Source: a virus
Virus record (IMG/VR): IMGVR_UViG_3300043775_001227
Location: 1-23,747 of that record
Reading direction: 5' to 3' (one strand)
Length of the DNA: 23,747 nucleotides
Within the stretch, counting starts at the first letter, position 1, and each line of letters begins with the position of its first letter. The notes beneath the pieces are model-generated. The model had not been told where the DNA came from. It worked only from the letters and a program-made list of their open reading frames with translations, and ran no database searches. Of the stretch, positions 9,956-20,751 are shown one piece after another. The position numbers were made by a program, and so were the translations under genes.

Positions 9956-12900
9956 ATGACGCTTTTTACGACTTCTCGCCCGACGATCTCTGTTAAATCG
10001 GTCACGCGTTATCCGACCCGGATTACGACCAGCGCGGGCTTGTCATACAGCTACACGAACGGCACGCTCAACATTAGCCTTGATTATTCCGACATCCCGG
10101 ATTCGGCGCAGATTTCTGATCCGACAAATTATACGACGGTTGTTTACAACAAAACGACCCAGCGGCTGGAAGAAGTCCAGCTAGACTATATCCCGACAAC
10201 GGTTGTCGAAGACCCGGTTTATACGCGTGGCGACTCAAACTTCACTATTCCGAATGATTATCGGGTTCTTGCGCTTGTCGCGAATTTAACGGCCTCGCGG
10301 ACGTGGACGCTGCCTTTGGCGGCCAATGTAACGTCCGGCAAAAGCATCTTTATTTTCGACAATGTTGGCGGCATTTCCGCTGTCAATACGCTTATTATCT
10401 CCGCTCCGACCGGAAATACGATCAACGGCGCAGCCAGCATTACGCTTAGCAATGCCTTTGCTGGTATTACAATCGTCTCGAACGGCGGCACTCAATGGAC
10501 TGCCGTTCTCACCAATGTTGACTCGGTTGGCGGCCTCGGAACCAATGTCGCAAACGCGCTCAAACAGCCGGTCAACGCAGCCAACGGCCTTGTTCGGCTT
10601 GACGGCAGCGGAAACGTCCCGGCGCTTAATGGCGCGGCGCTTACCAGCCTCAATGCCTCCAATCTTGGCTCTGGAACGGTCCCGGCAGCGCGTCTTCCCG
10701 GCCCGACGCTTTCGACCATTGGCGGCGTCAAGGCGAAGGCCGCCGAAACGTCGAAATTTGTCAACCAGATCGACACGGACGGCAGCGTCAATCTCGCCCG
10801 GCCAGCCGCAAGCGACATCAGCGGTCTAGCCGCATCTGCCACCACAGACACCACCAATGCCTCCAACATTAGCTCAGGGACGCTCGCAGTAGCCCGTGGC
10901 GGCACTGGTGCTACAGCAACTACCGGCACTGGCAACAACGTGTTGTCCACAAGCCCAACGCTTGTTACTCCGGTTCTTGGCACGCCCACTTCAGTTACGC
11001 TAACAAATGCTACTGGCCTCCCGTTGACCACGGGCGTCACAGGGACGCTCCCGGTAGCTAACGGCGGCACCGGGCTCTCTTCGCTTACGACCGGCTACAT
11101 CCCGTATGGCAATGGGACGAATGCATTTCAGTCGTCAGAAGACGTCTCCTACACTGGATTGGCGCTCAAGATCGGCGGCGCATCAAGCACAGGATATGTG
11201 ACAGTCAATAAGGGAGCCTCCAACTCCAGCGGTTTCTTTGCGTCATTTGACCAATCTGGCGTGCGAAACGCTTACTTTGGTTATGCGCTGTCAACCGCTG
11301 TCTATGGCTCATGGGTAGAAGTCAACAAGCCTCTTCTGTTTGCTACGAATAACACTGAACGTATGCGTATTGATGGCTCTGGTAACGTAGCCATTGGAAC
11401 GACCACGTTTTCAGCGGGCTCAAAACTTGAGGTTGCAGGGAACGCGGTATTAACTGCGGCGACATATGCATTTCTTGGTGTTAACAGCGGGGCTGTCCAA
11501 TCTCAATTTGCGGCGAATGGCGGCGGAACAGTTGATGTCCGCGCTGTGTCAAACCACCCACTGACGTTCTTCACGAATAATACTGAGCGTATGCGTATTG
11601 ATACCAGTGGTAGGGTTGGCATCGGCACAAGCTCTCCTACCGCAAGACTGACGGTGCTAAATCTAGGCACAACTGATCCGCGAGCTTTGGTGTTGCGTGG
11701 CCAGAGGAGTTTTGCTGCCGAGACGCATGGCGCAACGTCTCTTATCGCCTTGTCACAGGGAACGGAAGGTACGCACGATCTAGGTGCAATTCGATTTGAG
11801 CAAAACCCAAGCACCGCAGATGGTCACGGCGCTTTGGTCAGCTTTTTTGTCGGTGGAAACTCGTCTTCGTTCCCATCAAGCTCTGAGTTTATTAGAGGGA
11901 CATCGATTACCTCTTCTGTTGGTGTTGACAATGTTCAAATCCGCACAGCCGGTTCTGAGCGTATGCGCATAACCAATACCGGTAACGTAGGTATAGGGAC
12001 GACTGCTCCGCTAGGAGCATTGCAGGTTTCAGGTGACATATACACATACTTTGGCGGCAACTCTGCTGGTTCTGGTGGTTCGTATTATTTTGGTATTGCA
12101 ACATTCCCAACCTACTCTCCAATGGCTGCAATCAAGGGTTCATTGGTAAATGCCGCTGGATCAGAGTTGCAAGGTGATCTTGTATTACAAACGAGAAGTT
12201 TTGGAACAGCAGGACAGTCACTTTCAGAACGTATGCGCGTCACTAATACCGGTAACGTAGGTATTGGAACGTCGAGCCCGCGCGCACCACTAGCATTTCC
12301 TTCAACCGTTTCAACTGCTGGTGTGCCAAACAAAATCCGCTTGTTCGATGATGGCGCATCAAATCTCTATGGCTTCAATGTCTCGTCTGGGCTCTTGGAT
12401 ATAATTGCAGGAACGGGCGGTGGAATTGCGTTCTATACCAATAATGCTAACGAGCGTATGCGTATCGATAACGCTGGCAACGTAGGTATCGGAACCACAT
12501 CTACATCAAGTGCAAGAGTATCCATCAGTGGTGCAGGTTCAGCCGCTGCATTGATTTTAACTGGGCTAAGTTCGTCAAATTTGGTTGGCGATATCTACAT
12601 CAACCGCTCGTCGTCAACTACCTCCATAGCTGCTGCACCAAATATATATTTCGCTGATGGAACGTATAACCGTGTAATTCAATCCGGCCAAGGGAACCTA
12701 CAATTCTTCCGCTATACCACTTCGTGGATTGAGGACATGCGTTTGGACGCATCCGGCAACCTCGGGCTGGGTGTTACGCCGAGTGCTTCTGACGTAACAA
12801 ATAAAGGGTGGTTTCAGGGCATAGGGTTTGTTCTTGGAACGCCGGGTAATGGCGGCCTAGATACATTATCGTTGGCTTCAAACGCATACAATTCGACAGG

Positions 12901-13468
12901 GTCAACATGGTTATATCGTGTAGGCGGCGCTAACGCCTCAAGATACGATCAATTTAGCGGCAGTCACAGGTGGTTCACCGCACCCTCCGGCACCGCAGGC
13001 AATGCCATCAGCTTCACGCAGGCGATGACGCTGGATGCTAGTGGTAACTTGGGTATCGGGACGACCTCGCCATCTGAAAGGCTCTCTGTCTCTGGTGCAA
13101 TCGGCGCAACAACAACCATCCGATCATCTGGCGCAACATCTGGCATCGGCTACGCAACCGGCGCTGGAGGAACGGTCACTCAGGCTACATCCCGCACAAC
13201 CGGCGTAACCATCGACAAGGTGTGCGGCCAGATCACACTTGTGTCAGCCGCTGGCTCAACATCGTGGCAGAGCTTCACGGTGACGAATAGTGCCGTGGCG
13301 TCCACTGATACCATTATTGTCAATCAAAAAAGTGGCACGGACTTGTATCAAATCTTTGTCACCAACATAGCTGCTGGCTCATTCAGAATTACTTTTGCGA
13401 CCACCGGCGGCACCACGACTGAGCAGCCTGTCTTTAACTTCTCTGTCATCAAGGCTGTTGCAGCATAA
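9956..13468 (+). CDS. Large tail fibre protein with ERMRID-type repeats (1170 aa)
   Basis: The N-terminal 90 residues are a likely virion-attachment region. Residues about 290-380 show the common fibre linker (ARGGTGAT..., LSTSPTLVTPVLGTP, GTLPVANGGTG). From residue 468 there are seven copies of the ERMRI...GNVGIGT motif, each spaced by 75-125 residues of beta-rich sequence. The C-terminus (GIGYATGAGGTVTQ, TTGVTIDKVCGQIT, then a Thr/Ala-rich beta domain ending FNFSVIKA) matches a widespread fibre end domain. I see no S74 chaperone domain. This is presumably the main receptor-binding fibre. It is followed by a DUF7936-like accessory gene, as is usual for such fibres. Confidence 0.85.
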   Translation: MTLFTTSRPTISVKSVTRYPTRITTSAGLSYSYTNGTLNISLDYSDIPDSAQISDPTNYTTVVYNKTTQRLEEVQLDYIPTTVVEDPVYTRGDSNFTIPNDYRVLALVANLTASRTWTLPLAANVTSGKSIFIFDNVGGISAVNTLIISAPTGNTINGAASITLSNAFAGITIVSNGGTQWTAVLTNVDSVGGLGTNVANALKQPVNAANGLVRLDGSGNVPALNGAALTSLNASNLGSGTVPAARLPGPTLSTIGGVKAKAAETSKFVNQIDTDGSVNLARPAASDISGLAASATTDTTNASNISSGTLAVARGGTGATATTGTGNNVLSTSPTLVTPVLGTPTSVTLTNATGLPLTTGVTGTLPVANGGTGLSSLTTGYIPYGNGTNAFQSSEDVSYTGLALKIGGASSTGYVTVNKGASNSSGFFASFDQSGVRNAYFGYALSTAVYGSWVEVNKPLLFATNNTERMRIDGSGNVAIGTTTFSAGSKLEVAGNAVLTAATYAFLGVNSGAVQSQFAANGGGTVDVRAVSNHPLTFFTNNTERMRIDTSGRVGIGTSSPTARLTVLNLGTTDPRALVLRGQRSFAAETHGATSLIALSQGTEGTHDLGAIRFEQNPSTADGHGALVSFFVGGNSSSFPSSSEFIRGTSITSSVGVDNVQIRTAGSERMRITNTGNVGIGTTAPLGALQVSGDIYTYFGGNSAGSGGSYYFGIATFPTYSPMAAIKGSLVNAAGSELQGDLVLQTRSFGTAGQSLSERMRVTNTGNVGIGTSSPRAPLAFPSTVSTAGVPNKIRLFDDGASNLYGFNVSSGLLDIIAGTGGGIAFYTNNANERMRIDNAGNVGIGTTSTSSARVSISGAGSAAALILTGLSSSNLVGDIYINRSSSTTSIAAAPNIYFADGTYNRVIQSGQGNLQFFRYTTSWIEDMRLDASGNLGLGVTPSASDVTNKGWFQGIGFVLGTPGNGGLDTLSLASNAYNSTGSTWLYRVGGANASRYDQFSGSHRWFTAPSGTAGNAISFTQAMTLDASGNLGIGTTSPSERLSVSGAIGATTTIRSSGATSGIGYATGAGGTVTQATSRTTGVTIDKVCGQITLVSAAGSTSWQSFTVTNSAVASTDTIIVNQKSGTDLYQIFVTNIAAGSFRITFATTGGTTTEQPVFNFSVIKAVAA
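11357..13070 (+). repeat. Seven dispersed direct repeats encoding ERMRI(D/T)..GN(V/L)GIGT
   Basis: Copies begin near 11357, 11585, 11957, 12227, 12452, 12731 and 13019. The first five share GA(A/G)CGTATGCG; the last two are diverged (EDMRLDASG, QAMTLDASG). They mark segment borders in the fibre and could support recombination between segments. Confidence 0.8.
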
Positions 13469-13481
13469 CAGGAGAGAAACA

Positions 13482-13811
13482 ATGGCTATCACATATGACT
13501 GGCGGGTAGAGCAGATGGAATGCTACCCGCAACATGAAGGACACACGGACGTTGTGTTTACGGTCCACTGGCGCGTCAATGCGGCTGATGGCAACCATAA
13601 CGCCACCAGCTACGGCAGCGTGGGCGTTACGCTTGAGCCGGATGCTGACTTCACGCCCTACGACAACCTGACGCAGTCTCAGGTCATTGGGTGGGTGAAG
13701 GATGCTCTCGGCGAAGAACAGGTTACTCGGATTGAAACCGCCCTTGATGGGCAGATCGCAGACCAGATCAACCCGCCGGTAGTTCGTCCGGCGCTTCCGT
13801 GGGTGGCGTAA
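13482..13811 (+). CDS. DUF7936-like tail fibre accessory protein (109 aa)
   Basis: The ATG at 13482 is chosen because GGAGAG lies about six bases upstream; the open frame continues further left into the fibre gene without an RBS. The protein has MAITYDW.VEQMECYP, DVVFTVHWRVNA, a segment FTPYDNL, QVIGWV and NPPVV.P.LPW. This is the pattern of a family found next to phage tail fibres (DUF7936, recalled rather than searched). The stop overlaps the next start (TAATG). Likely a fibre assembly or cap protein; activity not shown. Confidence 0.7.
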   Translation: MAITYDWRVEQMECYPQHEGHTDVVFTVHWRVNAADGNHNATSYGSVGVTLEPDADFTPYDNLTQSQVIGWVKDALGEEQVTRIETALDGQIADQINPPVVRPALPWVA

Positions 13812-13969
13812 TGGAAAACAAAAATCTTTCGATTGAGCTTCCGGTTGAAGCGTGGAACATCGTTATGAACGCGCTGGGTCAGCGACCGTATGTGGAGGTG
13901 TCCGCCGTGATTGCGGAGATCAGGAAGCAGGCGGATGCGCAGACCGAAAAGCCTCCAGAAGATAGCTGA
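13811..13969 (+). CDS. Small hypothetical protein (52 aa)
   Basis: It starts in the upstream stop (TAATG) and ends in the next start (TGATG). The sequence begins MENKNLSIELPVEAWNIVM and contains PYVEVSAVIAEIRKQA. The pattern (ELP...W..V...L...PY..V..VI..I..Q) is common in tiny phage genes beside tail or lysis genes. Soluble and helical, no known function. Confidence 0.6.
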   Translation: MENKNLSIELPVEAWNIVMNALGQRPYVEVSAVIAEIRKQADAQTEKPPEDS

Positions 13970-14082
13970 TGCCAGAAGAAGACATTCGGTTTGTTCAAGG
14001 GCTGTGCCTCATCGGTGCGGCCCTTTTTCTTTTGCGCCTACTGCTTGACATCTGGCGCTTGGTTAGTCGGGAACTGCCATGA
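13969..14082 (+). CDS. Tiny single-span membrane protein (37 aa)
   Basis: Coupled on both sides: TGATG with the upstream gene and ATGA with the endolysin. One hydrophobic segment (LCLIGAALFLLRLLLDI) is followed by a basic end. Its place just before the endolysin makes a lysis-related role possible, but nothing in the sequence proves it. Confidence 0.5.
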   Translation: MPEEDIRFVQGLCLIGAALFLLRLLLDIWRLVSRELP

Positions 14083-14456
14083 CGAAGCTAAACTCCACAA
14101 GCATCGCCCGGATGCGAGGCGTTGATCCAAACCTGATCTCTCTTGCCAAAAAGGCTCGCGAGATTTCTCCGATCCCGTTCGAGATCACGGAGGGTATACG
14201 GACCAAGGACCGGCAGGCGTATTTGGTCAAGACCGGCAAGTCCCGCACGATGAAATCCTACCATTTGCGCGGCAAGGCCATTGATTTTGTCGCTATGCCG
14301 GGCGGCAAGGTTTCGTGGAACATCAAGGACTACAAGACCATCGTGGAGAAGGCGTTTAAACCGGCTGCAAAGGCTCTTGGTCTCACTGGCGCGATCACAT
14401 ACGGGCTTTATTGGAAAAGCATCGTGGACGGCCCACACGTTCAAATCGAAACGTGA
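14079..14456 (+). CDS. Endolysin, M15-type L-alanyl-D-glutamate peptidase (125 aa)
   Basis: The family signature of T5-type endolysins is clear: YHLRGKAIDF at residues 61-70 gives His62 and Asp69 as zinc ligands, and DGPHVQ near the end gives His120 as the third. EGIRTKDRQAYL (residues 38-49) is the usual N-terminal substrate motif. The length of 125 residues is normal for the single-domain enzyme. There is no signal peptide, so it depends on a holin for access to the wall. It starts in the ATGA overlap with the tiny membrane gene before it. It cleaves peptide stems of peptidoglycan during lysis. Confidence 0.9.
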   Translation: MTKLNSTSIARMRGVDPNLISLAKKAREISPIPFEITEGIRTKDRQAYLVKTGKSRTMKSYHLRGKAIDFVAMPGGKVSWNIKDYKTIVEKAFKPAAKALGLTGAITYGLYWKSIVDGPHVQIET

Positions 14457-14461
14457 CCATC

Positions 14462-14641
14462 ATGGAAGCTGTGCGGTTTCTGATCGTTTCTATGATCTAT
14501 ACCGCCGTTCTTTTTGGGTTCGCGTTCCTATTGACCGGCTGCGCGGTTGAAGGCGCGGGTTTTGAGAATAGCGGGCGACACGCAAAGCCGGTTGTGTGTC
14601 GTGAGATACGGCCCGGCTACACGCAATGCAGGAGTGAATGA
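14462..14641 (+). CDS. Small lipoprotein (59 aa), lysis cassette
   Basis: The ATG at 14462 gives a signal peptide (hydrophobic LIVSMIYTAVLFGFAFLL) ending in a lipobox LTGCA, then a short mature part with two more Cys (VVCREIRPGYTQC). The open frame extends further upstream inside the endolysin gene but would spoil the signal peptide. No clear Shine-Dalgarno is visible, so coupling from the endolysin is likely. It might be an accessory spanin or an entry-blocking lipoprotein. It is not the best o-spanin candidate because one is embedded in the i-spanin gene downstream. Confidence 0.6.
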   Translation: MEAVRFLIVSMIYTAVLFGFAFLLTGCAVEGAGFENSGRHAKPVVCREIRPGYTQCRSE

Positions 14642-14823
14642 TGATGCTTGTCGGATTTCGGACCTATATCGTTTCCGCCCTGACGGCGGCTTTCGGTGCG
14701 CTTGCCGTCGTTGACTGGGAAACCTTCCTGCACGATCCGAAGGCTGGCTGGTCGATCATCGCCATGTCGGTCGTCATGGCTGTCATGCGGTCGATCACCA
14801 CGACGCCGCCGGCCCTGAAATGA
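14641..14823 (+). CDS. Holin-like small membrane protein (60 aa)
   Basis: There are ATGs at 14638, 14641 and 14644. GGAG at 14631-14634 favours 14641 or 14644. Two hydrophobic segments (TYIVSALTAAFGALAVV and WSIIAMSVVMAVMRSI) and the ending RSITTTP fit a conserved small phage membrane protein found in lysis cassettes. A second holin candidate lies at 15200, so one of the two could be an antiholin or an unrelated membrane protein. Confidence 0.6.
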   Translation: MMLVGFRTYIVSALTAAFGALAVVDWETFLHDPKAGWSIIAMSVVMAVMRSITTTPPALK

Positions 14824-15056
14824 TCAGCGCGATCCTGTCGGTTGTCAGCGGCTTGTTTTCAGTCGCTGGCAAAATATTCGAATGGCTTTACGCCAAGCAA
14901 CTGGTGGACGCAGGCCGTGTTCAGGAAAAGCTCTACGCCCTTAACAAACAAGTGTACGAAGCCCAGATCGCTGTTGCGGCTCGCGAAGCTGTCCGTGCTG
15001 CTACCATTCGTGACGGCGTGTCAATCGACGACAACGATCCCTTCCTTCGCGACTGA
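14820..15056 (+). CDS. Rz-like inner-membrane spanin (78 aa)
   Basis: Starts in the ATGA overlap with the holin-like gene. An N-terminal membrane segment (ISAILSVVSGLFSVAGKIF) is followed by a charged, heptad-like periplasmic helix (KQLVDAGRVQEKLYALNKQVYEAQIAVAAREAVRAA). This is the topology of an i-spanin. The out-of-frame lipoprotein inside and beyond its 3' end supports this. Short for the family, which varies widely. Confidence 0.65.
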   Translation: MISAILSVVSGLFSVAGKIFEWLYAKQLVDAGRVQEKLYALNKQVYEAQIAVAAREAVRAATIRDGVSIDDNDPFLRD

Positions 15057-15198
15057 TCGGCCCGCATTCTGTGACGCTGCGCGGGCGATCTATTACAGCA
15101 GGCATGACAGTCCGCCGACGATCGCCCAGATAAAGGAACATAACGCGGTTGGTGTGGTATTAAAATGCGGGTGGCTACCCGCAAAGAAGGCGAAGTGA
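14974..15198 (+). CDS. Rz1-like outer-membrane lipoprotein spanin, embedded out of frame (about 74 aa)
   Basis: The frame is open from 14842, but only a start at the TTG at 14974 gives a proper signal peptide: basic RLAK, then LSVLLPFVTAC with the lipobox Cys. The mature part contains FCDAARAIYYSRHD, then T..QIKEHNAVG and KCGW, a pattern seen repeatedly in alphaproteobacterial phage lysis cassettes. The gene starts inside the i-spanin gene in another frame and runs about 140 bases past its stop, like lambda Rz/Rz1 but extended. No strong RBS precedes the TTG, so the exact start is uncertain. Confidence 0.65.
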   Translation: MRLAKLSVLLPFVTACQSTTTIPSFATDRPAFCDAARAIYYSRHDSPPTIAQIKEHNAVGVVLKCGWLPAKKAK

Positions 15199-15199
15199 C

Positions 15200-15448
15200 A
15201 TGAAAGACGGGCACCATGAAACCTTGTGGGATTTTGTGTCATCATTGTTTGAAACAACGAATGAAAAGATAACCGCAGCAATATCGGGTGCCGCTATTAT
15301 CAGTCCAGCTTTTCCAACCTTTAAGCAAACGTCCGACACGGCGACGTTATTGATGCCGATCCTTGGTTGTCTTTGGCTGCTCAGTCAGATCGCCTTCAAG
15401 TGGTATGGACACTTCTCGCGGCCAAAGGACGGGCCTGATGGCACATAA
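15200..15448 (+). CDS. Holin candidate, two membrane segments (82 aa)
   Basis: It starts one base after the o-spanin stop. Hydrophobic segments are AAISGAAIISPAF and LLMPILGCLWLLSQIAFKWYG, separated by a short polar turn (KQTSDTA). The N-terminus is charged and soluble. This SGAAIISP / LP.LG..WL.(V/S)QI layout is familiar from alphaproteobacterial phage holins. The 3' end overlaps the start of the next gene by 11 bases. Confidence 0.6.
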   Translation: MKDGHHETLWDFVSSLFETTNEKITAAISGAAIISPAFPTFKQTSDTATLLMPILGCLWLLSQIAFKWYGHFSRPKDGPDGT

Positions 15449-16526
15449 GCCGGGACTGACGCGCGACGAGCTTGATCAAACCCGACGCGCGCTTGAAGCC
15501 AACGGCGGCAACGTCCGGGCAACGGCTGTTGCCTTGGGCATATCCCGCCGGGCCATGCAGCACAGGATGGCGAAGCTACGGAAATTCACGGCACCGTTAC
15601 TGCCAAGCCCTATACGCGATCTCGACGAACTGATTGCTGATCGCATTAAGGAAAGCCGTAGATCAAAGAACGCTGACGACGCGCGCGATCTGATCAAGAT
15701 CAGCGTCAATATCGACGGCCCGTTTGGGTTATTGATCTTCGGCGATCCGCATGTTGACGACGCCGGATGCGACTTTGAGACACTGGCAAAGCACCGACAG
15801 CTTGCAATCGATCATCCGTTTATCCTCGCCGGGAACATCGGCGACAATTTGAATAACTGGGTTGGTAGGCTGGGCCAATTATACGCGCACCAAACGACTA
15901 CAGCCGCCGAAGGATGGAAGCTGGTTGAGTGGCTGATCCGTCCGATCAACTGGCTGTTCCTGATCGGCGGCAACCACGATCTCTGGATGGGCAATGGCGA
16001 TCCGCTTCAATGGATAGCATCGCAGGCCGGTAGCATATATGAGCCGCACGGCGTCAGAATGGCGCTAAAACAGCCTTGCGGCACAGTGACAAGAATAGCA
16101 GCACGGCACGATTATCCGGGCCACTCAATTTACCACAGCCTCCACGGCCCAAAGCGGGAAGCCCTTATGGGTTTCCGAGATCACCTGATAATTGCTGGCC
16201 ATAAACACATCGGCGCGTCGGAGCAGTTTGTCACGCCGGACGGGCTTGTTTGCCAGATTGTCCGCGTGTCTGGATACAAGATCGTCGATGCGTATGCCAA
16301 GCAGTTAAACCTCAAGAAAATGCTCATGCATCAGGCGGCGCTTATCATTATCGATCCGCGCGAGCCTGACACAAGTGCTGGCCGCTGCTGGTGCGCGCCA
16401 ACCGTGGAACGCGGCGTCATGTTTCTGAATGCCCTGCGTGCCGACTACGAACAAGGGACAACAAATGTCAGCAAAAGAAAACCGGCGGCTGGTGGAAGCA
16501 AACGCGTTAGCACAGGGAATACATAA
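15438..16526 (+). CDS. Calcineurin-like metallophosphoesterase with N-terminal Fis-type HTH (362 aa)
   Basis: The ATG at 15438 is preferred: AAAGGA lies upstream at good spacing and the protein begins with a folded domain. Residues 10-48 form a Fis-like helix-turn-helix (ANGGNVRATAVALGISRRAM). The phosphoesterase follows with all its motifs: GDPHVD (102-107), GDN (135-137), GGNHD (177-181), an isolated His (224) and GHKH (254-257). The metal-binding set is intact, so it is probably active on phosphodiester substrates, perhaps DNA, with the HTH giving targeting. It sits at the end of the lysis cassette, an unusual place for a nuclease. The role, such as host DNA degradation or packaging, is not shown by sequence. 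Confidence 0.8.
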   Translation: MAHKPGLTRDELDQTRRALEANGGNVRATAVALGISRRAMQHRMAKLRKFTAPLLPSPIRDLDELIADRIKESRRSKNADDARDLIKISVNIDGPFGLLIFGDPHVDDAGCDFETLAKHRQLAIDHPFILAGNIGDNLNNWVGRLGQLYAHQTTTAAEGWKLVEWLIRPINWLFLIGGNHDLWMGNGDPLQWIASQAGSIYEPHGVRMALKQPCGTVTRIAARHDYPGHSIYHSLHGPKREALMGFRDHLIIAGHKHIGASEQFVTPDGLVCQIVRVSGYKIVDAYAKQLNLKKMLMHQAALIIIDPREPDTSAGRCWCAPTVERGVMFLNALRADYEQGTTNVSKRKPAAGGSKRVSTGNT

Positions 16527-16743
16527 CCGGCTGCTGGAAACGAATACCGGCCTTCAGGACGCCTACGAAGACGCCTGCGTATGGATCGGTGAGCTTTATC
16601 TTGCCCTTGAAGCCGCTGAGCGATCTGTGTCGGCGGGCTATGTCAGGACAAATACAGCGCACCTGAAATGGCAGGCAGACAGGTCTATAAACCCGGTTGA
16701 TGACGGCGACGCGTGGATTTCGACGGGAGGCGCAAATGGCTGA
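16465..16743 (+). CDS. Hypothetical helical protein (92 aa)
   Basis: AGGGA precedes the ATG at 16465, which lies inside the 3' end of the phosphoesterase gene (62-base overlap, other frame). The protein is mostly helical (NRRLVEANALAQGIHNRLLE, YLALEAAERSVSAGY), soluble, without Cys pairs or a signal peptide. No family recognised. Its stop overlaps the next start region. It is probably a late gene because it is in the same operon. Confidence 0.55.
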   Translation: MSAKENRRLVEANALAQGIHNRLLETNTGLQDAYEDACVWIGELYLALEAAERSVSAGYVRTNTAHLKWQADRSINPVDDGDAWISTGGANG

Positions 16744-16969
16744 TGAAGACTACGAATTCGTCGTTTCACCGGACGGCATGTCGAACCTGATCGCGGACAA
16801 GGTAGCAAGCCGGACTGCTGCGTATATTGATCTGCTAGTGGAAACCAACAAGCTGAAAGACGACGCGCTTGTTGCCGAAGCGTTGGAAATGCTGAAGCGC
16901 GTTAGGTTGTCGATCAGCGTGAATTCAGAAGCGACGCTCAGCACCCTGAAAGGCGGGAAGGCTAACTAG
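16736..16969 (+). CDS. Hypothetical acidic protein (77 aa), last gene of the late operon
   Basis: GGGAGG precedes the ATG at 16736, a strong RBS. The protein has an acidic start (MADEDYEFVV), then a helical part (YIDLLVETNKLKDDALVAEALEML) and a Ser-rich end. No family recognised. It ends nine bases before the hairpin pair that separates the two convergent operons. Confidence 0.6.
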   Translation: MADEDYEFVVSPDGMSNLIADKVASRTAAYIDLLVETNKLKDDALVAEALEMLKRVRLSISVNSEATLSTLKGGKAN

Positions 16970-16977
16970 GCGGCTTT

Positions 16978-17010
16978 GCGTATAAAAGTTAAATATACGC
17001 TTTCGCGTAT
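16978..17010. terminator. Overlapping alternative hairpins between convergent operons
   Basis: GCGTATA at 16978-16984 pairs with TATACGC at 16994-17000 (7 bp, 9-base loop). The same 16995-17000 segment pairs instead with GCGTAT at 17005-17010 (6 bp, TTTC loop on the + strand, GAAA loop on the - strand). The leftward transcript has a U-rich stretch after its hairpin. It sits in the 41-base gap between two gene ends, so a bidirectional terminator is likely. Confidence 0.6.
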
Positions 17011-17145
17011 TCAGTCGTCTTCCTGATCCCACATTTTGTATCGCCCGCTGTTGCCTGTCCTGTCGCCCATGAGCGCCAGCACGATCCGCACGAAGCACAT
17101 GCCTACGGTGTAAACGCCGATGGCTGTGAATAGATGGACGATCAT
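17011..17145 (-). CDS. Tiny membrane protein (44 aa)
   Basis: Its ATG overlaps the stop of the upstream gene (TGATG arrangement at 17142-17145). One hydrophobic segment (HLFTAIGVYTVGMCFVRIVLAL) is followed by a polar C-terminus (YKMWDQEDD). It is the last gene of the leftward operon, ending next to the terminator hairpin. Function unknown. Confidence 0.55.
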   Translation of the reverse strand: MIVHLFTAIGVYTVGMCFVRIVLALMGDRTGNSGRYKMWDQEDD

Positions 17146-17237
17146 CCAACGCCTCCGCCGTTGTCTTTGTTGAACAAATACCACAGCATGACGTAGATGC
17201 CGACGAATGCCAGCACGGTGAAAATGGCTTTAAGCAT
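17142..17237 (-). CDS. Tiny membrane protein (31 aa)
   Basis: GGAGG lies about six bases before the ATG at 17237, and the gene start overlaps the stop of the HTH gene by eight bases. It is one hydrophobic helix (AIFTVLAFVGIYVMLWYLF) and a Gly-rich tail. Very short, but the RBS and tight coupling on both sides support it. Function unknown. Confidence 0.55.
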   Translation of the reverse strand: MLKAIFTVLAFVGIYVMLWYLFNKDNGGGVG

Positions 17238-17490
17238 CGCTATCCTCCACTCGGACGACGAGGCGTGCGCCAAGAGCGTTTATAACGGCTTCTAGCTCTA
17301 TAATTCTTGGGTTCCTGTTATTCAGCCGCCATTTCCGCATGGCGGATGCGGATACGCCGGAGCGAGCCGAAACGTCATGCTGCGAGCATTTCTGATTGTT
17401 GATCTCGCGCCATATCCACCGCACGAGCGGATGAACGCCGTTTTTGACAATCGGCACATTTGCGCGTCTGTATCGGATCATCTCGCTCAT
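17230..17490 (-). CDS. XRE-type helix-turn-helix protein (86 aa)
   Basis: The start at 17490 is chosen because it forms an ATGA overlap with the upstream DUF6378-like gene; the open frame continues further but without support. Residues about 28-70 form an HTH (CSQHDVSARSGVSASAMRKW) followed by LEAVINALGARLVV, as in small Cro/CI-type regulators. A basic N-terminus precedes it. It is probably a late-acting or accessory regulator. It is separated from the main repressor by the whole early operon. Confidence 0.65.
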   Translation of the reverse strand: MSEMIRYRRANVPIVKNGVHPLVRWIWREINNQKCSQHDVSARSGVSASAMRKWRLNNRNPRIIELEAVINALGARLVVRVEDSDA

Positions 17491-17747
17491 CGTGTCGCAA
17501 ACTCCGCTGCAAACGCGAGATAGTTCGCGCAGTCCAGATAATTGTCTCGCTTGTATGGGCTGGACCGCATTCGTGCGAGTTTTACGGACGCCAATATAAT
17601 TGCCACGTCGTAGCAAGAAAGCTCGCGACCAAGGATCGTCCCGGCAATCTCTGCCGCTCTGTCAAAGTTCTTCTCTATCCCTCCATAATCCTGCCCGCGT
17701 TCTCCGATTAGTCCGGCAGCCTCTGACAAAAAATCATGCGGATTCAT
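17487..17747 (-). CDS. DUF6378-like protein (86 aa)
   Basis: The pattern ERGQDYGG.EKNF, then LSCYDVAIILASVKLARM, then RDNYLDCANYLAFAAE is that of DUF6378, a small helical family frequent in phages (recalled, not searched). The ordered acidic residues recall all-alpha nucleotide pyrophosphohydrolases, so a nucleotide-pool role beside the dCTP deaminase is plausible but unproven. Coupled by ATGA overlaps to both neighbours. Confidence 0.7.
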   Translation of the reverse strand: MNPHDFLSEAAGLIGERGQDYGGIEKNFDRAAEIAGTILGRELSCYDVAIILASVKLARMRSSPYKRDNYLDCANYLAFAAEFATR

Positions 17748-18211
17748 CTGGCGGGCTCCATAATTGCTGCGACCGGCGCGTCGGCCTGATTTTGGTATTT
17801 GCCCGCGTACGGGCTCTCTGTTGGTTCGGCCAAGAGGTGGAAAATTATCTGGGCGATTGGCGAACCGGCCTCGATGTCAATCGGCGCATAGCCGTGGTTC
17901 GTAAGCTCAAGCGTAAGCCATCCGGTCCACGACGGTTCGATAATGGTGTTTTGAACGGCGAGGCCGCGCCTCGCCCATGTGGATTTATCGGCGACATGCG
18001 CCAGAACGTCGGCGGGCATATGAAACCGCTCTACGGTTGACGCCAGAGCAAATTCGCCAGCCATTAGCGTCAGCCGTTGCTTGATGCGAACATCGTATCC
18101 AGCCGGGCCGAGGCCGTAGCTCATACCGTGGATGACGGTGCGCTCGGCGAACGGTGAGACCATTTTAGATTGCAGGCACCGGGATCGGATCATTTGTGCG
18201 GGCAAAATCAA
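17744..18211 (-). CDS. dcd: dCTP deaminase/dUTPase-fold protein (155 aa)
   Basis: Motifs run GPAGYDVRI (36-43), DKSTWARRGL (75-84), IEPSWTGWLTLELTN (91-105) with Glu102 matching the catalytic Glu of dCTP deaminases, and GSPIAQIIF (116-124). The family makes dUMP or dUTP from dCTP in trimers. The start is a TTG at 18211 with GGAG at 18219-18222, seven bases upstream; the ATG at 18193 is an alternative without a comparable RBS. The gene lies immediately on the other side of attP from int, and the left integrase arm repeats lie just upstream of its RBS. Confidence 0.8.
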   Translation of the reverse strand: MILPAQMIRSRCLQSKMVSPFAERTVIHGMSYGLGPAGYDVRIKQRLTLMAGEFALASTVERFHMPADVLAHVADKSTWARRGLAVQNTIIEPSWTGWLTLELTNHGYAPIDIEAGSPIAQIIFHLLAEPTESPYAGKYQNQADAPVAAIMEPAR

Positions 18212-18234
18212 AGCGTTGCTCCTTCAATGCAATG

Positions 18235-18252
18235 TGCGGCAGTTTGCGGCAG
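18235..18252 (+). repeat. Left attP arm sites: two TGCGGCAG direct repeats
   Basis: TGCGGCAG occurs at 18235-18242 and 18245-18252, 10 bp apart, about one helical turn. The same octamer occurs twice on the other side of the tRNA-derived core, in the same direction. This suggests arm-type binding sites for the integrase N-terminal domain. Confidence 0.65.
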
Positions 18253-18337
18253 AAATAGCCCAAAAAAGGCCATTCCTGACGCACCTAAAAGATCGTAGAT
18301 GTTTGAATTATAAAGAGATTGCGGTTTACGCCGCGCG

Positions 18338-18381
18338 CTCATAACGGCTTGGTTGGGGGTTCGAGTCCCTCCCGGCCCACC
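18338..18381 (+). other. attP core: 3' part of a CAU-anticodon tRNA
   Basis: The segment reads as tRNA: anticodon loop CTCATAA (18338-18344), stem strand CGGCT, variable TGGTT, T-stem GGGGG, loop TTCGAGT, CCCTC, acceptor strand CCGGCCC (18372-18378), discriminator A and CC. The anticodon CAT fits Met or Ile2. No matching 5' half (an acceptor GGGCCGG) is present upstream, so the tRNA is only a 3' fragment, as carried by phages that integrate into tRNA genes. After ACC the sequence reads G, not A. Confidence 0.8.
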
Positions 18382-18428
18382 GGCGAAATCAATGGTTTGC
18401 GGGCTCGGATTTGGCGGCAAGGTTCGCT

Positions 18429-18454
18429 TGCGGCAGATATGCGGCAGATTGCGG
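18429..18454 (+). repeat. Right attP arm sites: TGCGGCAG direct repeats
   Basis: TGCGGCAG occurs at 18429-18436 and 18440-18447, then a partial TGCGG at 18450-18454, at 10-11 bp spacing. This matches the pair at 18235 and lies just after the int stop codon. Core and both arms together make a complete-looking attP. Confidence 0.65.
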
Positions 18455-18467
18455 TTCATGCGCCGTT

Positions 18468-19556
18468 CTATTTCCTTCCGAGGATTGCGATTTCATCCCG
18501 CAGGTGATCCGGCGCGAGATGCCCGTAGTGGCGCTCAACCATGACTTCGCTGGTCCCTAAAATCTCCGCCACCTTGCGCGTTGAGACGCCTTTCTGGATC
18601 AACCAGGAGGCCGTCGTATGCCTGAGCGTATAGGCTGTAACAGCCGTATCTAGCCCGGCGAGCTTTACGGCCCGTCCAAGCGCGACTTTTACCGACAGGA
18701 CGGATTTACCGTTCCAGCGGATTACCGGCCCTGTGTGGCCGTCTCTGGCCGCCCAACGGGCCATATGCCGGGTTAGCGTCGGAGCCATCGGGACCGGCGG
18801 CTGGCGCTTGTTCGTCCGGCGGGCTCCAGAGGCCAGCCGGTAGATCATGCCGTTTTCTGTGTCTACATAGCCGCGCCCGATCTCATGGTGCCATGACAGG
18901 CCGAGGATGGCTCCGGGCCGAGACCCTGTGTAGACGCCGATCAGAATGAACCGGGCCAAATGCCGCAGCGGGCGGCGAACCGTTGCCGAGCCTTCCTGAT
19001 TTTCGCGGGTGACGAGGCAGACCCACAAGAGCCGGGCGACCTCTGCCCGCGTTAGCCAACGAAGCCGTGAAGATCCGGCTGGCGGCAAAACAACGCGGAT
19101 CAGTTCGCGGTGATACCCTTCCTTGTGGTGGTGATTTATTGCGGCGGCCAAATCCTGTAGGTCGCGCCGGGCTCCGCCCGTATTGCCGCGCCATTCGGCA
19201 TATTTCCGGCACAGCGCGCCCGTTATATCGTTGAGCGTATATTCTCCGAAAAACTCGATAAGCCTCTCGGCCCGGCCAGCTGCGCTTACGCGACTTGCCT
19301 GACCCGGCACTACGTCTTTCAGGTAAATGTTTATAACGTCTGCCATCATTATTTTTGCAAGCGGACGATCTCTGCGGACGGGCTCATGTTTGGCTGCGAG
19401 ATAGTCAGCGAGCCGTTTTTCAGCGCCCGCGCGGTCGCTAGCGCCGCAGCCTGTGCCAATTTTCTTCGATCCATCTCGGATGACCCATAGCCGTCCGTCT
19501 CCCGGCCTTCGTTCTGGCATGAGGTAGAGTCTTGGGCCTTTGGCTTGACGCGGCAT
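18468..19556 (-). CDS. int: Tyrosine-recombinase integrase (362 aa)
   Basis: The ATG at 19556 is preferred: GGAG sits six bases upstream. A GTG at 19568 would overlap that RBS. In this numbering the active-site residues are Arg213 (YTGSRPGAI), Lys250 (TNKRQ), Arg312/His313 (YTLRHTTASWLIQKG; the first His of the usual HxxR box is Tyr, common in this group) and Tyr344 (ERHYGHL). The N-terminal 60 residues (MPRQAKGPRLYL, WVIRDG) form the arm-binding domain. Length is normal. The gene points at attP and is overlapped at its 5' end by the excisionase-like gene. It should mediate recombination with the CAU tRNA gene. Confidence 0.92.
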   Translation of the reverse strand: MPRQAKGPRLYLMPERRPGDGRLWVIRDGSKKIGTGCGASDRAGAEKRLADYLAAKHEPVRRDRPLAKIMMADVINIYLKDVVPGQASRVSAAGRAERLIEFFGEYTLNDITGALCRKYAEWRGNTGGARRDLQDLAAAINHHHKEGYHRELIRVVLPPAGSSRLRWLTRAEVARLLWVCLVTRENQEGSATVRRPLRHLARFILIGVYTGSRPGAILGLSWHHEIGRGYVDTENGMIYRLASGARRTNKRQPPVPMAPTLTRHMARWAARDGHTGPVIRWNGKSVLSVKVALGRAVKLAGLDTAVTAYTLRHTTASWLIQKGVSTRKVAEILGTSEVMVERHYGHLAPDHLRDEIAILGRK

Positions 19557-19732
19557 CGTGATCTCCACTCATCTACTGCGGCTGGCGTCGTGATAACACG
19601 TCGGCCAAGCCTCTCCACCATAAGCTCGCCGCGCTCAACCGCGACGCGCAATGTAGCAACTTTCACAAGGCCGCGCAGACATATCTCTGCGGCTTCTTGC
19701 AGTGATATTGGCGAATCCGGCGAAAGGCTCAT
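19349..19732 (-). CDS. Excisionase-like winged-helix protein (127 aa), overlapping int
   Basis: ISLQEAAEICLRG, then TLRVAVERGELMVERLGRRV and ITTPAAVDEW (residues 8-58) form an Xis/HTH_17-type DNA-binding domain. The second half is low in structure (Gln, Ser, Ala, Pro) and is read over the first 208 bases of int in another frame. The family pairing of this Xis with an integrase starting MPRQAKGPR is familiar from Hyphomicrobiales genomes. It starts in an ATGA overlap with the HNH gene. Likely role: directionality factor for excision. Confidence 0.75.
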   Translation of the reverse strand: MSLSPDSPISLQEAAEICLRGLVKVATLRVAVERGELMVERLGRRVITTPAAVDEWRSRCRVKPKAQDSTSCQNEGRETDGYGSSEMDRRKLAQAAALATARALKNGSLTISQPNMSPSAEIVRLQK

Positions 19733-20103
19733 TTTGTGTCCTCATACATATTTCTTGGCGGCAAGCTCTGTTTTGCTATGCGAGGCTGCCTTCCAGAACT
19801 CGGAAACCCTCGGCTCTTGATCGTGCCTTTCGGTTCGACGGCTCCGATATGACGACGATGTTGGCGGCGTGTTTTAGCAATCTGCGGTATATCCTGTTTT
19901 GCTGTCTTCTCTTTATGACAGGACTCGCAAAGAACCTGACAGTTTTGGATTTCACCTGTCCCGCCCAGCCGACATGGTATGATGTGATCGAAATGAATTT
20001 TCCCAATTTGCAAGGGCAGACCGCATAATTTATTTTCGCACCGACCTTTACTGCGTTCATACGCCTGTTCCTTTGTCTTTGCGGTGAATTCATCGCGCTT
20101 CAC
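19729..20103 (-). CDS. HNH endonuclease (124 aa)
   Basis: Residues 21-71 hold the HNH/zinc-ribbon set: Cys22 and Cys27, HFDHIIP with catalytic His40, LGG, Asn54, then CESCH with Cys59, Cys62 and His63, and KT..D. The start is a GTG at 20103 in a GTGA overlap with NinB. The C-terminal 50 residues are basic and unstructured. It lies between NinB and Xis in a recombination block. It could assist recombination or packaging, or be homing-like; the sequence does not decide. Confidence 0.8.
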   Translation of the reverse strand: MKRDEFTAKTKEQAYERSKGRCENKLCGLPLQIGKIHFDHIIPCRLGGTGEIQNCQVLCESCHKEKTAKQDIPQIAKTRRQHRRHIGAVEPKGTIKSRGFPSSGRQPRIAKQSLPPRNMYEDTK

Positions 20104-20492
20104 GATGCGTCGGCCTCATCCGACAGAGTGACTCCACGCTCAGCCGCAAACGCGCTGATCAGTTCTAGTAGGGCCGTCATCTGTTCGCGGCTCAAACTGC
20201 TTGTGCGAAGTCCAAGCGGCACGCGCGTATTTGGATTAAGTCCGGGAACGACCCTGTATTCGCGCAGCGCGGCTGTGAATATGTCCTTCCAGCAGTCCGG
20301 CGTTAGCTTTTCGCCATACCATTCAACCTGCGCTGCGATTTCCGATAGCCGCGACCACATCAAGGCGTTTTGCTCGATGGACCGCGCATCGTGCTTTTTA
20401 AACGCGACCATGGTTCCGGGCGGAGCTTTTCCAACCCACCCGGCAACCTTGCGTCGATCAGTGTCGCTGACTATCGGAATCCAGTTTGGCAT
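20100..20492 (-). CDS. ninB: NinB-family recombination protein (130 aa)
   Basis: The family pattern is clear: ARSIEQNALMWSRLSEIA, VEWYGEKLTPDCWKDIFTAAL, then GLRTSSLSREQMTALLELI and a Glu/Arg-rich end. NinB (lambda Orf) binds ssDNA and helps recombination mediators load. Length is normal. It lies in the same operon as an annealing protein and an exonuclease, as expected. The gap to the upstream gene is four bases. Confidence 0.85.
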   Translation of the reverse strand: MPNWIPIVSDTDRRKVAGWVGKAPPGTMVAFKKHDARSIEQNALMWSRLSEIAAQVEWYGEKLTPDCWKDIFTAALREYRVVPGLNPNTRVPLGLRTSSLSREQMTALLELISAFAAERGVTLSDEADAS

Positions 20493-20496
20493 TGGC

Positions 20497-20751
20497 TCAC
20501 CCGAAAGGAATATCGTCGTCCAACTGATCTGTTAAAGAACCGCGCGGCGCTGGTGTGGAAGCCGCGTCACGTTCCCGTGGCTCCTTGCAGGACAGCCAGA
20601 TGTTGCCTTCCTTGTCAGGCAGCGGCAAAGCGTCCAGCTTGATCGTCCATCCCTGTCCGTCTTTCGACAAGAATTGCGCGCCGACCTTTAGCCAATAGGT
20701 TTTTCCGTCCTTACCGGGACGCGGAGATAAAACATCGAACCGTGTTGTCAT
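20497..20751 (-). CDS. Small protein with SSB-like acidic tail (84 aa)
   Basis: The N-terminal part (FDVLSPRPGKDGKTYWLKVG, GWTIKLDALPLPDKEGNIWL) is a short beta-rich domain found as a conserved hypothetical in Hyphomicrobiales phages and plasmids (recalled). The last residues are DQLDDDIPFG, close to the DDDIPF tip that bacterial SSB uses to recruit partners. It is coupled to its upstream neighbour by ATGA and sits between exonuclease and NinB genes. An ssDNA-binding or SSB-mimic role is a reasonable guess, not a proof. Confidence 0.65.
   Translation of the reverse strand: MTTRFDVLSPRPGKDGKTYWLKVGAQFLSKDGQGWTIKLDALPLPDKEGNIWLSCKEPRERDAASTPAPRGSLTDQLDDDIPFG

Follow-up and report, generated by a model that had tools for sequence, protein, structure and literature searches.

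The region at positions 18212-18467 of the viral sequence analyzed here is very probably an intact, unrecombined attP, unintegrated in the assembled molecule, from a tailed, temperate phage that infects Hyphomicrobiales-like alphaproteobacteria. It belongs to an already known type of site, the attP of a tyrosine-integrase phage overlapping a tRNA gene. The source, referred to as the window, spans 23,747 bases and is classed as 'linear' in IMG/VR; since genes run open at both of its ends, it represents a fragment of a genome. The site and its neighboring genes comprised the following features.

17487-17747, minus strand, DUF6378 protein, a left-flank phage gene whose homologue adjoins the attP in contig L127
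17744-18211, minus strand, dCTP deaminase (PF22769, E = 5e-21), the first gene left of the attP
18208-18459, minus strand, open frame of 83 aa, antisense to the tRNA half (by eye)
18235-18252, plus strand, candidate P-arm pair of TGCGGCAG, copies at 18235 and 18245 (-103 and -93 from CTCATAA)
18338-18382, plus strand, attP core, 3′ half of a tRNA-CAU, anticodon loop through discriminator and CCG
18386-18399, plus strand, AAATCAATGGTTTG, the local form of a motif of about WWTCAATNNCTTA after the tRNA end
18429-18447, plus strand, candidate P′-arm pair of TGCGGCAG, copies at 18429 and 18440 (+91 and +102 from CTCATAA)
18468-19568, minus strand, tyrosine integrase of 366 aa, 3′ end toward the attP
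19349-19732, minus strand, putative excisionase of 127 aa, overlapping the int start (weak phrog_1840 match, E = 5e-5)

The core sequence, CTCATAACGGCTTGGTTGGGGGTTCGAGTCCCTCCCGGCCCACCG, contained the anticodon loop (CAT), the 3′ anticodon stem, the T arm, the acceptor 3′ strand, and the discriminator, and it started exactly with the loop CTCATAA (18338-18344), the expected region of strand exchange. As the first-pass annotation had proposed, this CAT-bearing 3′ fragment lay beside int without its 5′ half. The bases upstream of 18338 did not rebuild the missing half, ARAGORN and Rfam called no tRNA in the whole window, and the Rfam scan across the entire window gave no match of any kind. A chimeric tRNA composed of a host 5′ half and the window 3′ half folded into a full cloverleaf in silico. 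The window encoded CCG rather than CCA at 18380-18382, while most related tRNAs encode CCA; the CCG end was also present in L127 (2443-2487), and L026 had CCC. Since the phage half ends in CCG, the tRNA gene of a lysogen would have no encoded CCA and would need 3′ trimming and CCA addition. The motif near WWTCAATNNCTTA was observed on the phage side of the tRNA end in most relatives, irrespective of the target tRNA (L007, L011, L017, L018, L027, L030, L031, L032, and L087), as well as in the tRNA trailer of genome G001 (contig L004), which is itself probably an attL. The 83-aa frame was dismissed as a gene, having no PHROG match and running antisense to the tRNA half.

The four TGCGGCAG boxes were exact copies on the plus strand with spacings of 10 and 11, in agreement with the direct repeats described earlier, two per side at about helical-turn spacing. 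In the whole window, TGCGGCAG occurred 6 times against 1.63 expected, and the largest number in shuffled sequences was 4. Among 5,000 dinucleotide shuffles of 18212-18467, just 6 contained any 8-mer in four copies, a feature that none of the other 256-bp stretches of the window had.

Phage genes were found on both sides of the site, as had been noted before, with the dCTP deaminase and DUF6378 genes on the left and int, the excisionase candidate, and recombination genes on the right, where HNH, NinB, YqaJ exonuclease, Erf, and an S24 repressor followed. Homologues 52% identical to the excisionase candidate adjoined int in L123 and L127. When the S24 repressor was used as a query against the viral contigs, no relative was found. 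The 709-aa structural protein of the window had no match among named phages, so the window phage is not close to any of them. The related phages L069 and L071 shared two blocks with the window, Erf-NinB and M15/HTH, and L069 had another integrase between them, suggesting that modules are exchanged at the int position. Elsewhere, positions 1-1959 encoded a tail protein of repeated modules like GDVWFDTDDGNKxYYWNGSAWxDTSD, in which IPA and VYRQ linkers alternated.

Two further contigs carried the junction. The first, L003 (5,981 bp, metagenome 3300043468), equaled window positions 14561-20541 with one difference (99.98%), junction included. The end of L059, from the same metagenome, overlapped the start of L003 by 127 bases (window 14561-14687), which resembles a k-mer assembly break. 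The second, L127 (10,163 bp), came from a different phage whose integrase was 72% identical to that of the window, and its junction was the same, with a DUF6378 homologue, the tRNA half, int, and xis. Free attPs of like anatomy were present in L127 and in the phages RHph_Y1_10, PPF1, and 16-3.

The window integrase was a tyrosine recombinase (PF00589, E = 2.5e-11) with the catalytic R, HxxR, H, and Y conserved among four homologues. Pfam reported the catalytic domain alone and detected no N-terminal arm-binding domain; residues 1-65 were the fastest-diverging part relative to L123 and L127. In a tree of 29 integrases, that of the window was one of 8 forming a clade (support 99/96), and every member of this clade was located at a tRNA-CAT sequence; the more distant integrases were located at tRNA-Pro(CGG), Val, or Gly. 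Beside the int gene of POI1126, no att of this kind was found.

The integrated form was seen in relatives. Contig IMGVR_UViG_3300042505_000662 (39,765 bp) represents part of a lysogen, and its integrase is 67% identical to that of the window. Its 38,685-bp element was bounded by attR at 12-58 and attL at 38697-38743, which form a 47-bp direct repeat, CGCTCATAA...CCACCA. The int end carried a complete 76-nt tRNA-CAT starting with GGGCCGG, just as had been predicted for the acceptor 5′ strand of a CAU target, and a bacterial class II aldolase gene (PF00596, E = 4e-48) lay outside it. At the far end, the bare 3′ half adjoined genes homologous to window ORF 16429 and, by eye, to ORF 16697, and window-homologous genes were present inside both prophage ends. 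The prophage in genome G056 had exact 67-bp repeats 33 kb apart with int at the tRNA end, and its attR end carried a DUF6378-like relative (by eye) and an HTH/phosphoesterase-like protein. When its flanks were joined in silico, AATCTCCAA pairs appeared at the corresponding places. Both prophages bore out the expectation that the junction is split to the two ends in a lysogen. The expected layout with dcd at one end and int at the other held for the int end and for homologues of the window flanks, but dcd itself was not fixed; its slot next to att is variable, since another gene filled it in 3300042505_000662. Used as a marker of the far prophage end, dCTP deaminase was detected in 4 of 199 genomes of the family at E ≤ 1e-12. 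In G016 and G088, no attR was found within 60 kb.

The first-pass annotation had named Met or Ile2 as the CAU target. In genomes also carrying an elongator tRNA-Met (GGCGGAG, GG at positions 4-5), the target was the other CAU tRNA, with C4 and C5. On tRNA-Ile2, C4:G69 and C5:G68 act as the dominant identity elements for TilS of E. coli, although identity elements differ among bacteria (PMC12514573); judging from these bases, the CAU target is probably tRNA-Ile2. Within the order that includes Rhodoblastus (Hyphomicrobiales in the NCBI taxonomy), the recommended search of bacterial genomes returned chromosomal matches with at most 3 mismatches in 80 of 398 genomes, versus 7 of 385 in the class. 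The window 3′ half differed from chromosomal tRNA-CAT genes of Hyphomicrobiales at 1-3 positions. The exact 41-nt 3′ half had no match in these 398 order and 385 class genomes, and the nearest sequences, in G440 and G485, had 1 mismatch. The host was likely a member of a Hyphomicrobiales-like group of alphaproteobacteria.

Among known systems, Rhizobium phage 16-3 was similar in having a homologous integrase (35% identity), an int 3′ end facing the attP, a core in the anticodon-to-3′ region of a tRNA, and repeat pairs on both sides. Its record annotates a 260-bp functional attP, and Semsey et al. (2002), as cited in PMC8631192, deals with its integration into tRNA-Pro(CGG). The window differed in its tRNA-CAU target and TGCGGCAG boxes, compared with tRNA-Pro(CGG) and GGCAAYGA-like boxes in 16-3. 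The Rhizobium phages RHph_Y1_10, vB_RleM_PPF1, and phi3LM21 also have complete genomes with a homologous int and a free attP, but with a tRNA-Pro(CGG) core, another box sequence, and an integrase identity of 38%; the records of 16-3, PPF1, and phi3LM21 annotate an attP or attachment site here beside the homologous int. In ICEMlSymR7A, the 283-bp attP of IntS has five P/arm-type motifs, all of which are needed for integration (PMC11963761). It is a conjugative element with the arm motif TGKTGGTATC, and the likeness lies in the attP layout. Also among the closest systems were the 3300042505_000662 prophage and L127, with a tRNA-CAU core, shared neighboring genes, and a left arm pair at the same positions. 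They differed in their boxes (TGCGACA and GCCCCAG, respectively) and in the genes of the attP-adjacent slot, and the 3300042505_000662 element is integrated.

Arm positions were counted from CTCATAA, or from the matching loop of the Pro-tRNA, in seven attPs including the window, the others being as follows.

3300042505_000662, flanks joined: TGCGACA pairs at -103, -93, +82, +93
L127: GCCCC-AG/TG pairs (box GCCCCAG) at about -103, -93, +82, +93
G056, flanks joined: ATCTCCAA pairs at -107, -96, +79, +91
RHph_Y1_10 and PPF1: CGGACCG pairs at -102, -91, about +117, +128, with one further right copy
16-3: weaker boxes at about -102, -92, +105, +117

The best box quadruple of each attP had 0-4 mismatches, compared with at least 5 in shuffled flanks (mean 8-22; 40 shuffles per attP), and the value of 4 for RHph_Y1_10 was a frame-shifted best match. 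The two-pair arrangement of the window had 0 mismatches, and the best of its 40 shuffles came no closer than 6. Across the relatives, all four boxes changed together while their positions stayed nearly fixed. From this comparison of arm positions, the TGCGGCAG pairs are probable arm-type sites, and the view that the window integrase would bind them is well supported. We lean toward a broader interpretation, in which the arm-site recognition of this integrase clade may turn over in concert through TGC-GG-CAG, TGC-GA-CA, GC-CC-CAG, ATCTCCAA, and GCGCAA at nearly fixed positions, with int on the other side of the attP in Rhodoblastus. In the Rhodoblastus contig L002 (9974-11335), int was located on the P-arm side of the attP, while the window int is on the P′-arm side; the attP is thus inverted relative to int between the two, and L008 and L025 looked like L002.

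In the model, we infer both protein binding and the point of strand exchange. The anticodon stem-loop region would serve the integrase as its core binding site and both TGCGGCAG pairs as its arm sites, and strand exchange would take place within the anticodon loop of the host tRNA-CAU gene, probably tRNA-Ile2. At the int-side end (attL), the full tRNA would be rebuilt using the phage 3′ half, and a bare 3′ half would be left behind at the dcd-side end (attR).

The arm pairs may also reveal the state of the assembled DNA. Most attL loci, which have a complete tRNA, carried the right pair, and the attR loci L008 and L025 had the left pair only. In L002, the tRNA half had GCGCAA boxes on the left and CCCCAATGAT boxes on the right, and because these are mismatched, two different elements must abut in tandem there; the matching GCGCAA right pair was found beside a complete tRNA on L004, another contig of the same genome. 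On balance, we favor a rule by which matched pairs would indicate an attP, a right pair only an attL, a left pair only an attR, and mismatched pairs a tandem of different elements. The complete tRNA or host genes that were to speak against an attP were absent beside the core, where phage genes occupied both sides, and the window had neither the single arm pair of an attL or attR nor differing left and right motifs. Since matched pairs of one motif were present on both sides, the window is one element's attP joined to itself, and together with the phage genes on both flanks, this makes the assembled molecule an unintegrated junction. The earlier statement that the sequence is not an integrated prophage therefore holds for the assembled molecule, but not for the population, since a small number of excised circles in a lysogenic population would yield the same junction on assembly.

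The junction may come from virion DNA, an excised circle, or an infecting genome that has circularized, and since the contig is not closed, identical copies in tandem fit as well; the matched boxes and the phage genes on both flanks accord with all the forms originally listed, circular, virion, or tandem, and the non-tandem forms are simpler. We consider it improbable that two or more identical prophages sit in tandem in one tRNA gene and that the sampled DNA is chromosomal. Tandem occupancy of a CAU tRNA is known from L002, where two different elements abut and a second tRNA 3′ end with its trailer lies 5.4 kb downstream (11291-17000, which looks like a tandem series of elements, with IS-like genes, at a single tRNA). 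However, a tandem of different elements would give mismatched arms, so the four identical boxes of the window limit this explanation to identical copies, and no integrated end of the window phage was seen in viral contigs.

An unintegrated attP is also preferred over a fossil att site in a phage that integrates elsewhere, which we regard as highly unlikely. No lysogen of the window's exact phage was found among the genomes and viral contigs searched, and the encoded CCA has become CCG, both of which would fit a decayed site. However, L127 has the same core and the same CCG, the adjoining int is intact, the arm boxes are free of mismatches, and in close relatives the site serves for integration. 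An assembly chimera of two unrelated phage ends has nothing in its favor but the general risk of metagenome data and is equally implausible, since the junction recurs in the second assembly L003 and in L127 and agrees with the joined ends of integrated relatives.

The target (a CAU tRNA and probably tRNA-Ile2), the likely host group, and the candidate arm sites of an uncultured phage could be named from sequence alone. In a limited literature search, neither the concerted box change nor the box-matching rule was found described. By simple box matching, phage DNA in contigs could be recognized as free, integrated, or tandem. With boxes that change in concert while their positions remain fixed, domain swaps offer a direct test of integrase arm specificity, and the concerted series, if true, would reveal which N-terminal residues of the integrase select the arm sequence.
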